A DNA stretch of 64,000 bases from Lysobacteraceae bacterium. Lineage in GTDB: Bacteria; Bdellovibrionota; UBA1018; JAGTJX01. Numbering within the stretch: the first letter of the stretch is position 1; each line of letters starts with the position of its first letter. The stretch spans positions 365,515-429,514 of the forward strand of contig JAGTJX010000004.1 of NCBI GenBank assembly GCA_023657465.1. The letters run 5' to 3'. The translations under genes and the position numbers were made by a program. Under the pieces are notes generated by a model that was given only the letters and a program-made list of their open reading frames with translations, did no database searches and had not been told where the DNA came from. Positions 2,988 to 53,586 of this stretch are shown in pieces.

Positions 2988-4089
2988 TTTTCAAATAACT
3001 TTCTAGCAACTTCATTTGCCATTTCACGTAAAGATTCGTTATCAGACTTCAATCCATCTTCTGTTGTGCAGAATACTTTTAGATCATCTAATTGCTTAAC
3101 TTCAAGACGGATCACTTCCAGATCCAATGCAGGATTGTCACATTTCTTTCTGACAGAGTCAGCGAACTTAGCAAACATTCTCTCCTTTGCGTCTGGTGTT
3201 AGTTCAAGCGCAATGTGAGCAATCGAGTTTGATTCGCCTTCTCCTAGAATACTTATTCTGCCAATGGTTCTAACAAGTGTTACACTCTCTTTCTCTTGAG
3301 CAGCTCCTAGAATTAAAAGTTTTTTTACTGGCGATGGATTTGAGTTAAGTTTCTTATACTTAAACATATGCTTATTTGAGAAAAGAGTAGCTGTTCCACC
3401 TACGAATGACGCTATTCCTGTATCGAAAACTATATTAGCTAACAGTGCGCTCCCGCCCCATGTAGTTATACCTACTGCACCAAATGCTGACATAAATCCG
3501 AAAGCAATGAGGCCCATTTTCCTGTCTTGATTTCTAGCTAATATTTTTTCATAAAAATTGAAACAGCCAGGTTTTTCGATATGTCCTATAATTATTTTTT
3601 GAATAAGATTATTATAAGGGTAAATTCTTCGTGATAAATCATAAATCGAACTAGGTAACTTTTCTTGAGTTATTTTTTCATTATCAGTCAGTTCTATTCC
3701 TATTAAATTTAAATACTCATGAAGCAGTAGTACTGTTACTTCTCCTGAATTAGAATTTATTTATTTAAAATCGGGTGCATAAAACTGAATGAGATTTTTT
3801 TCATCATTTTTAAAATGGAGAGCAGATTTTTCTACTCCATTTTTATTTACTAAAATCTCATTTGTTATTTCAATTCTTGAGTTGTGAATTACTTTTGAAA
3901 GTTGATCCACTGCAATCTCAGGATACAGTTTTGCTCCTTCCCCTTGTTTGAAGAATTGTTCGATTTTAAGTCCTAGTTCAATGAGTTTTACTTCATTGAT
4001 TTCTCCGCCATTCCCACCTTTCTCGCCTGCAAGTGCGAAGTAGAGAGTGTCAGTCCTGCGATTAATACTAGCAAATTCATTTACTTCAT
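2984..4089 (-). pseudogene. Decayed secreted/membrane protein gene; its 3' part is the intact ORF 2984..3517
   Basis: Frame of ORF 2984..3517 (MGLIAFGFMSAF..) stays open upstream on the minus strand (..INSNSGEVTVLLLHEYLNLIGIELTDNEK..NFYEKILARNQDRK) to an in-frame TAA at 3761..3763, continues beyond it (GEKGGNGGEINEVKLIELGLKIEQFF..), then has a 2-nt frameshift inside the signal-peptide region (about 4040-4050). Confidence 0.6.
4004..4080 (-). repeat. Duplicated signal-peptide/GEKGGNGG segment, copy A (copy B about 5259..5332)
   Basis: ttcccacctttctcgcctgc..gtagagagtgtcagtc.cgcgat.aatacta..aattcat shared near-identically between the two positions. Confidence 0.75.
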
Positions 4090-49815: not shown

Positions 49816-50211
49816 CTATTTCTTCTGATTGAGTTGATGGATCAGTTCAGAGATTTTCTTTTGTGCTGCATAAACATCAGATTCCTTCTTAGCCCCAATA
49901 GTCACAATCAGTTCTTCGATCTCAGTGCGAGAACGAGAGGGCAGAGCACTTAAGAGGTGCATCTTCAGTTCATGACTTGATTTTCTCAGTGCGGTCGCAA
50001 GAAGTGTGCGATCGAGATTGATCAGAAACGGCTGGAGAGAAGCTGCATCGATTCTGAGCAGATCCTCGAAAAGGAACATTAGATCTTCAATCGCAGATGC
50101 AAGTTTGGGATCCTGTTCCTTGATTTCGCCTAAGATTCTCTCGCGAGTTGCATCATCTAATCCTGCGAGTAGTTCTGCTGCTCCACGTGGTCCAGTTGAA
50201 GGTTTAGCCAT
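49816..50211 (-). CDS. Orphan FliG middle/C-terminal domain-like protein
   Basis: AELLAGLDDATRERILGEIKEQDPKLASAIEDLMFLFEDLLRIDAASLQPFLINLDRTLLATALRKSSHELKMHLLSALPSRSRTEIEELI..VYAAQKKISELIHQL aligns by eye with FliG ..FVFEDLxxLDDRxLQxxLREVDxxxLAxALKGxSEExKxxxxxNMSxRAAEMLxEDxE..VExAQxxIVxxxRxL. Confidence 0.7.
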   Translation of the reverse strand: MAKPSTGPRGAAELLAGLDDATRERILGEIKEQDPKLASAIEDLMFLFEDLLRIDAASLQPFLINLDRTLLATALRKSSHELKMHLLSALPSRSRTEIEELIVTIGAKKESDVYAAQKKISELIHQLNQKK

Positions 50212-51188: not shown

Positions 51189-51995
51189 ATGTGGATGAGT
51201 AGGATTTATATTTTTCTATTAGGTGGAGTAGGTTTATTGATCTCAACGGTGGGAGGATTCTTCTCCGTCGTAGGTCTCACTCACTTATTCACAGGTGCAC
51301 CACTGAGTGTCGGCTTGATGGCTGCAAGTCTCGAAGCAGCCAAGCTCGTCACTGCAGGTTTCCTTTATCGTTATTGGGGTCATATTGGCCGCATCATGCG
51401 TAACTATTTGACATTCGCAGTGGCGATGCTTTCATTCATCACAAGCTTAGGTGTGTTCGGCTTCCTCTCTCATGCGTATTTCAAATCAACTGTAGATCTA
51501 AAAACGAAGAATATGAAAATCTCTCAGCTCAGAGCTCAAGACAAGCTCCTTTAAGAGACGATTAACAAGGCAGAAGATTTCATTAAAGAGATCCTACAAA
51601 ACAGAATTTCTAAAAAGTTTGAACTCTATGAGAAGTCGAGAACTCAGATGAGAAAAAACACCGAGCGTTCTCTTTCAATTCAGACTGAAATCGCTGTACT
51701 TCAATTACAATTCTACGGTGCTCAAGCAGATATTGGGCCGCTCTAAGATGTTTCAGAAGCCACTGAAATTCCAGTGGATACAATTGCTAAGGTTCTAATA
51801 CTCATTTTCGTTTCAGTGTTTGACCCACTTGCGATCTGTTTGGTCTTCGCATGGGGTCTTGCGATTCGTCTCAGAGAGAAGTATCGCGGCGATGAGAAGC
51901 GAATCTCGCATCTCTCGTTCACTAAACCTGTTGATCAAGCTCCTAGAGATATTGCTTCTTCAATACAATGGTATATCCCTGTGCGTCATCACTGA
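51189..51995 (+). pseudogene. Phage-type membrane/coiled-coil protein, interrupted by two in-frame TAA codons
   Basis: Same frame throughout: TM region GFFSVVGLTHLFTGAPLSVGLMAASLEAAKLVTAGFLYRYWG..TFAVAMLSFITSLGVFGFLSHAY, coiled coil, C-terminal TM ETxx-like DTIAKVLILIFVSVFDPLAICLVFAWGLAIR; TAA at 51552..51554 and 51744..51746. Confidence 0.7.
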
Positions 51996-53088
51996 GTCTT
52001 GGTTTTGGTTGAGGATTAGGGTTCTTATCAGTAGGCTTGTCTGTCACAGTCAATCTAAACGGATTGTCTAAGTATGACTGAGTGACTGTGTAGAATCCGT
52101 ACTGAGACTTGTCACCCGAAGCTTGTCCCATGACATCATGGCCAGTTTGTCCCCAGCTGTTCTTAATGATCACGCCATTATAGACTTCATTGACGATGAG
52201 TACAGCGTGGCCGCCAGAGATTTTTTCACAGGTTCCATTTGGGCATGCAGTCGAGTCGAATACTCCTGTTTGCTTAGTTTTCTCAAAAGTATCGCCGAAA
52301 ATAATGAATCCCATGGGAACTGCGTTTCCATCTGCAAGAGACTTCTGGATCTTAGGGTAAACACTTGTTTGATTGGAACGAGTCACAATGACTTCTTTGT
52401 ACTCAGAGCTGTCGAAGTTAAGATAGTCCTTCGCAAAAGTAAGTGGTGTGTATTCCTTGCCTTCATATACAAACTTATCGTTCGGCTTAGGAGGAGTTGC
52501 ACCGAATGCAATAGCAAATTCAGCCAAGAGCTTCTCTGGGTGAGCTTCGTAGTCTGCAACAGTGTCTTTGAGTTGAAGCTTCTCTGAGAAATAATTGATG
52601 ATTCGTTTCTCCATATTGGCGCGTTCTTTTGAGATCTTGGTTTCAAAAATAGACTCGGGAACGATTCCGTACTTGGCTGCGTAATCAAATGGAGCCTGCA
52701 TTCCAGGAGATCCTTCAGACGGAGTCTGTTGAAGGAAGCCAAGAGCTTGTTCCAAGATCATTTTGCGGACAGGTTCCCAAACTTTTTTACCAAATCCTGT
52801 TGTTGGAAGTTTTTTTCTAGCGAGTGCCTTAAATGTAGGCATACCTTTTAAGAAGCCATCGTACATGTGATAAAAGCCGACATATTCAGGAGAGAGAGTG
52901 ATGGTCTTGCCAGACTTCAGAGCTTCGCCTTCCATGAGTCCCATGAGAGTGTATGACCAGCAGAATCCAACGTATCCTTGATCCCTAGGATTTGTATGAG
53001 GCACAGGGTTTCCTGCGTTTTGTGCAAAGGCTGGATTTTGGAATAAACAAAGTACAGCCAAGGTAAGCGAAATAGTATTTTTCATCAT
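51943..53088 (-). CDS. Secreted C1 (papain-like) family cysteine peptidase
   Basis: RDQGYVGFCWSYTLMGLMEGEAL (catalytic Cys), GGHAVLIVNEVYNGVIIKNSWG (His/Asn); signal peptide from MMKNTISLTLAVLCLFQNPAFA. Confidence 0.85.
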   Translation of the reverse strand: MMKNTISLTLAVLCLFQNPAFAQNAGNPVPHTNPRDQGYVGFCWSYTLMGLMEGEALKSGKTITLSPEYVGFYHMYDGFLKGMPTFKALARKKLPTTGFGKKVWEPVRKMILEQALGFLQQTPSEGSPGMQAPFDYAAKYGIVPESIFETKISKERANMEKRIINYFSEKLQLKDTVADYEAHPEKLLAEFAIAFGATPPKPNDKFVYEGKEYTPLTFAKDYLNFDSSEYKEVIVTRSNQTSVYPKIQKSLADGNAVPMGFIIFGDTFEKTKQTGVFDSTACPNGTCEKISGGHAVLIVNEVYNGVIIKNSWGQTGHDVMGQASGDKSQYGFYTVTQSYLDNPFRLTVTDKPTDKNPNPQPKPRLSDDAQGYTIVLKKQYL

Positions 53089-53169
53089 GGCGCGAGATAT
53101 AGGCATTTGGGATTCCTGAGTCAATACATAATGCTTGTGTCGTAATTTGATTTCGTTTATCAATCGCTC

Positions 53170-53586
53170 ATGACTCATTTAATCAGTTTGATAATATTTT
53201 TTCTGGTCGGATCTCGTGCATTTGCAATGGGTTTCTTAGACCAATCCTCGCCGATCAAAGTCCTCCGCGCAGGTCGTCACGGCATTGAGCTACAGGTGTT
53301 GATGGCTCCAGGCCAAGTCATCAGAGGCGAGAACTGCTCACTACAAGCGATTGGGTCAAAAGAATCGGAGTCTGATGATGTCATCGGTAGAGGTTATCGA
53401 CTCTCATTCCATGGTATCCCAGTAGGATCAATTGATCCTATCATTCAATGGTCTGGAACGTTTAGGAACCTCTGGGGTAATCCTCACATTCTGATAGTGA
53501 GATGCAATACACCGCGAGATTTCTCCCTCACGATCGGTGAAATTGAAAAAGACTTGTCTCACGCCATTCGTTTCTATAAACCATAA
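53170..53586 (+). CDS. Hypothetical secreted protein
   Basis: 138-aa ORF with signal peptide-like N-terminus. Confidence 0.5.
   Translation: MTHLISLIIFFLVGSRAFAMGFLDQSSPIKVLRAGRHGIELQVLMAPGQVIRGENCSLQAIGSKESESDDVIGRGYRLSFHGIPVGSIDPIIQWSGTFRNLWGNPHILIVRCNTPRDFSLTIGEIEKDLSHAIRFYKP

Follow-up and report, generated by a model that had tools for sequence, protein, structure and literature searches.

Two groups of described membrane proteins that invite comparison with the protein considered here are the tetraspanins and the Rz-like spanins. Tetraspanins (PF00335) have four transmembrane (TM) helices, and the large region that separates TM3 from TM4 lies outside the cytoplasm, bears a CCG motif, and is disulfide-bonded; Rz-like spanins (phrog_739 and phrog_214) are periplasmic coiled coils held in the membrane by a single TM anchor. 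In the window (the whole stretch of 64,000 nucleotides that was analysed), an interrupted gene encodes a membrane protein with four TM helices and a coiled coil. Its likeness to tetraspanins is one of topology only: the relatives of the window protein scored 9.5–12 bits against the Pfam cut-off of 32.1 (E 0.16–0.94), the tetraspanin CCG motif is absent from the frame, and its hairpin region is a coiled coil free of cysteine, so this identity was rejected. Weak PHROG matches to Rz-like spanins were obtained for two of 11 members (best E 4.7e-06), but the model of an intact relative (L012) has four TM helices and a hairpin in place of the spanin's single anchor, and this identity was rejected as well. 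When the tested members were scanned with Pfam, NCBIfam, PHROGs, and PADLOC, the only matches were weak ones of coiled-coil type, none of them convincing, and a literature search for the 4-TM/coiled-coil-hairpin architecture found no paper. The main text of the paper on phage XacN1, which carries a homolog (ORF242), does not name that ORF (PMC5852040). The window copy is most probably a young pseudogene of this unnamed, widespread membrane family, which is common to phages and bacteria.

The interrupted frame and its surroundings

The frame lies at positions 51189–51995 (+) and comprises 268 codons plus a terminal stop (TGA, 51993–51995); the gene is present as a single copy in its own 2.83-Mb, 4-contig genome. 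A sequence-only reading had described one frame interrupted only by TAA at 51552 and 51744, with no frameshift, and translation confirmed exactly two internal stops, both TAA, and zero frameshifts, whereas we estimate that about 12–13 stops would occur by chance in a random frame of equal length (3/64 per codon). In tblastn searches, residues 2–250 aligned across both stops with an intact protein from an Oligoflexia metagenome-assembled genome (MAG) (48% identity, E=2e-75), and residues 6–241 aligned with Stenotrophomonas phages CM1/RAS14 (35% identity, E=4e-35), the comparison with phage proteomes having been proposed in that reading as a check. On the strength of this homology on both sides of each stop, we take the frame to be coding. 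Sequence comparison places it in the family over TM1–TM3 and TM4, whereas the uninterrupted frame expected of a functional member is broken by the two TAA codons. Translation may start at either of two ATG codons (51189 or 51195), and the second is perhaps the true start, because the proteins of the relatives begin MSKVY/MNRVY.

The TM region, coiled coil, and final TM segment previously read from the sequence agreed with the L012 model and with hydropathy. TM1 and TM2 (residues about 5–61, 51201–51371, +) were placed by transferring the model through the alignment, with hydropathy, and TM3 (residues about 68–98, 51390–51482, +), which carries the TSxGxxGxL signature, was placed by alignment, model, and hydropathy. 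The coiled-coil hairpin, predicted from the model, hydropathy, and charge to be periplasmic, spans 51483–51764 (+), divided by the model into arm 1 (51483–51587), a turn (51588–51605), and arm 2 (51606–51764). It holds both stops: the first TAA (codon 122, 51552–51554, +) falls in arm 1, and the second (codon 186, 51744–51746, +) lies beside the conserved GP motif that precedes TM4. At both columns, the relatives carry sense codons. TM4, with its VFDPLA signature, follows at 51774–51863 (+; alignment, model, and hydropathy), and the predicted cytoplasmic C-tail extends over 51864–51992 (+), its end overlapping the 3' end of a convergent C1-peptidase ORF (51943–53178, −).

The other genes of the window are nearly all open. 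A second interrupted gene is found at about 3623–4080 (−), with an apparent frameshift and a TAA at 3761–3763; a signal-peptide-like start lies in one frame and a GNGGE...LLLHEYLNLIGIE body containing the TAA in another. It has a distant intact homolog in genome G017 (25% identity, E 3e-7). With two such genes, the interrupted locus at 51189–51995 is not unique in the assembly. The second gene fits ongoing gene decay and local consensus errors equally well. Separately, a 131-aa protein encoded at window positions 49816–50211 (−) consists of the FliG C-terminal domain alone (E 4e-23), without the remainder of FliG.

Lineage, decay, and rival explanations

In an unrooted tree of 141 sequences, 19 Bdellovibrionota proteins formed a monophyletic clade (support 0.989) that contained the window protein; within it, the window protein grouped with L012, L013, and L014 (support 0.964), L012 being its sister (0.86). 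Its closest relatives, at 47–48% identity, are intact, stand-alone chromosomal Bdellovibrionota genes, and their neighbours are ordinary chromosomal genes, which by our reading of the sequences include a cyclophilin gene, rpoD, and dnaG; no synteny shared between the window locus and these relatives was found. The gene was present in 23 of the 141 genomes searched (25 copies) from the order of Bdellovibrio sp. qaytius, and in two of the 55 genomes of the window's own order, namely the window genome and G013, whose copy is intact and was the only addition from genome searches by relatives, order, and class. This patchy presence shows that the gene is dispensable.

The window copy was held to be decaying in the sequence-only reading, and the two stops, branch length, and conserved-site losses bear this out. 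It is the longest tip in its clade (0.80 versus 0.33 for its sister L012 in the 141-sequence tree), and on a fixed topology in IQ-TREE its tip measured 0.59 versus 0.33 before the first stop and 0.83 versus 0.20 after it. At the 44 near-invariant positions within the Bdellovibrionota clade, counted by leaving one sequence out at a time, seven are broken in the window copy, compared with 0–5 in the 19 relatives. The four radical changes at such positions all lie 3' of the first stop, and only two losses, both conservative (A to G, A to S), lie 5' of it; the difference between the two sides of that stop lacks significance (Fisher p 0.5–1.0). Relative-rate tests gave p=0.007–0.32 depending on the outgroup (pooled p=0.04–0.10), favouring acceleration of the window copy in a suggestive but not decisive manner. 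Under neutrality, about 18 missense changes are expected per nonsense change, so that two nonsense changes would be accompanied by about 36 missense changes, and the observed excess appears compatible with that number once uninformative sites are allowed for. The GC3 values by segment (0.46, 0.40, and 0.37, against a gene mean of 0.43 with an sd of 0.07) gave no clear signal. Among the 25 copies listed for the order that includes Bdellovibrio sp. qaytius, every one is uninterrupted up to its terminal stop. L016 and L017 had been flagged as containing stops, but on inspection these proved to be terminal, with the sequence running on past them.

These observations make the break look like ordinary gene decay, which is probably recent; over 800 bases the frame has not shifted, and the DPLA/TM4 and C-tail motifs can still be recognised, which argues against older decay. 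We infer that a first stop in the window lineage would have cut off TM4 together with the later part of the hairpin, and that, once constraint had been lost, the gene would have gathered a further stop and changes at several family-invariant positions, still without a frameshift. The remaining product would be at most a 119–121-residue fragment with TM1–TM3, and the copy would be inactive.

A phage link had also been proposed, and it holds insofar as homologs occur in marine T4-like, pelagibacter, and jumbo phages (Mosig, CM1/RAS14, XacN1, and immuto), but the link is indirect, the closest relatives being chromosomal Bdellovibrionota genes. The further proposal, that the window lineage captured and domesticated a phage or prophage gene of which this is the relic, draws on the abundance of the family in phages and on the position of the bacterial clade among phage clades in the unrooted tree. 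Yet the window protein sits deep within the Bdellovibrionota clade, whose monophyly is well supported, its nearest relatives stand in housekeeping contexts on the chromosomes of several Bdellovibrionota, and, as the sequence-only reading had itself remarked, no other phage gene lies nearby (no phage-specific PHROG match was found among the nine neighbouring ORFs). A recent phage origin is therefore unsupported, and we consider such a relic scarcely credible; from its placement and context, the gene is of chromosomal lineage. Because the tree is unrooted, there may have been an ancient exchange between phages and bacteria, in either direction. Production of the full protein by programmed read-through, another of the earlier proposals, or by recoding of TAA would agree with a frame that stays open beyond both stops and with its recognisable motifs. 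However, TAA is usually the least leaky stop, and here it is the commonest stop in the window, terminating 22 of the 51 ORFs of at least 150 aa, which marks it as an ordinary stop and makes its recoding very unlikely. No relative has a stop at either column, those listed are uninterrupted, and the accelerated window copy has lost conserved residues after the first stop, leaving read-through with a negligible probability.

Two explanations deserve somewhat more weight. If the 119–121-residue TM1–TM3 product were still made and useful while the remainder decayed, the mild, conservative character of the losses before the first stop, the restriction of radical losses to the region after it, and the larger tip excess there would all be expected; but that contrast lacks statistical significance, no short form occurs among the relatives listed, and the invariant TM4 motif and the hairpin would be lost, so we regard a functional truncation as very unlikely. 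The main rival is that the gene would be intact in most cells and both TAA codons artefacts, arising from a strain-level variant or from an error in assembly or consensus. The intactness of all relatives listed, the lack of a frameshift, the motifs kept 3' of the stops, and the second interrupted frame in the window, which error could also explain, all speak for it. It requires, however, two independent substitutions of like outcome within one gene of a 4-contig assembly in which nearly all other genes of the window are open, and two stray errors would not account for the broken conserved positions away from the stops. We judge it unlikely, though less so than truncation, and prefer recent pseudogenization.

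Predicted fold and partner of the intact protein

The AlphaFold2 model of intact L012, built from an alignment of 81 sequences, had a mean pLDDT of 94.6 and comprised helices at residues 3–31, 33–59, and 66–131 (TM3 continuing into arm 1), a short turn, arm 2 at 138–190, and a helix at 194–243 (TM4 and tail). In both bacteria and phages, the TM2–TM3 loop and the C-tail are positively charged and the TM1–TM2 loop is uncharged, from which the hairpin is predicted to be periplasmic and both termini cytoplasmic. The intact protein is thus predicted with high confidence to span the inner membrane four times and to extend a long antiparallel coiled-coil hairpin, roughly 35–55 residues per arm, into the periplasm between TM3 and TM4. 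A Foldseek search of BFVD with the model returned phage proteins of matching fold (best E 1.6e-15, TM 0.85), and a search of the PDB gave no significant match (best E 0.086). We infer that the intact protein is most likely an inner-membrane scaffold or spacer, probably an oligomeric one that meets periplasmic or cell-wall partners in the envelope.

At 11 Bdellovibrionota loci (L019, L020, L021, L022, L023, and L025–L030), a second gene lies directly downstream of the homolog. Its protein has four helices in the TM range and a small C-terminal beta domain, and no Pfam match was obtained for it. The partner model is of moderate confidence (pLDDT 72), and its best PDB matches, with E values of 1.7e-03 and above and high match probability, are mostly PilZ-containing, namely BcsA complexes, MapZ, PA4608, and Alg44. 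This hints at a signal-controlled envelope complex of the hairpin protein and a PilZ-like 4-TM partner. In the closest relatives of the window protein, no partner adjoins the homolog gene, and in the window genome none was detected in a search run without a positive control.

The wider family and its known relatives

An alignment of 11 sequences (the window protein, eight phage proteins, one plasmid protein, and one MAG protein) has 16 invariant columns (S26, G29, F34, E49, K52, L53, T85, S86, G88, G91, L93, G183, P184, D212, P213, and A215), all kept by the window protein, itself one of the aligned rows. Homologs were found in 13 records of jumbo and T4-like phages. A single-sequence query of viral contigs gave no match, but an alignment query did, yielding at least 573 confirmed homolog loci in IMG/VR. 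The species-genome collection contained 130 homolog loci; the 80 retained belong mostly to Bdellovibrionota and Verrucomicrobiota/Opitutae, and the rest of these lie on contigs assigned to other taxa. Some such contigs, for instance L086, look like phage contigs. In phages, the gene often sits after the DNA polymerase gene and before those of a UvsX-like recombinase and a DnaB-like helicase. L107, L112, and about 16 other viral contigs of T4-like phages carry it between the DNA polymerase and the UvsX-like recombinase, a placement that suggests early expression. In some flavobacterial-type contigs, the homolog adjoins a holin and an endolysin-like gene. The homolog on a Pseudoalteromonas plasmid (L007, NZ_CP072685.1, 10860–12065) is annotated as "chloride channel protein", which is probably a misannotation, because the protein belongs to the hairpin family and has no chloride-channel Pfam match.

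The pseudogene itself is ordinary, and the value of the locus lies in the broad, undescribed family to which it points. With hundreds of loci in phages and further copies on Bdellovibrionota and Verrucomicrobiota chromosomes, and matching no Pfam, NCBIfam, or PHROG entry in these scans, this family is a good candidate for naming; its confidently predicted shape, which has no relative in the PDB, offers a lead on what these bacteria have in common with large phages at the inner membrane. We offer tentatively, as a possibility that we hold to be well short of probable, the joint reading that the family in its intact form constitutes an undescribed envelope module carried by T4-like and jumbo phages and by Bdellovibrionota and Verrucomicrobiota chromosomes. 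The module would have four TM helices, a periplasmic coiled-coil hairpin, and in some bacteria a TM-PilZ-like partner; phages and bacteria would have exchanged it anciently, phages would deploy it early in infection to guard or remodel the inner membrane, and the window would record its recent loss in one lineage.

Compared with its known relatives, the window gene is closest to the Bdellovibrionota homologs, among them those of Oligoflexia bacterium SJ240 (L012, JADLCR010000019.1), JACQAX010000302.1 (L013), and Bdellovibrio sp. qaytius (L022, CP025734.1), which resemble it in length, architecture, and clade at 37–48% identity; unlike the window gene, the chromosomal homologs of this phylum are uninterrupted, and many have the downstream PilZ-like partner gene that the window lacks. 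Uncharacterised phage proteins, among them XacN1 ORF242, WAX21716.1 of Stenotrophomonas phage RAS14, Mosig_00157 of a Pelagibacter phage, and immuto35A_85, share 27–35% identity over 81–88% of the query, the invariant motifs, and the fold in BFVD, but they are intact, lie in replication or lysis neighbourhoods, and often have a longer C-tail. Opitutae/Verrucomicrobiota proteins of about 860 aa are encoded on the chromosome at L046, L059, and about 36 other loci, and their C-terminal domain is unnamed. These proteins, of which L046 and L059 are examples, share with the window protein the N-terminal 4-TM/coiled-coil unit, at about 43–45% identity in TM1–TM3, and differ from it in having a much longer coil and an extra TM helix, as well as about 400 aa of C-terminal domain.
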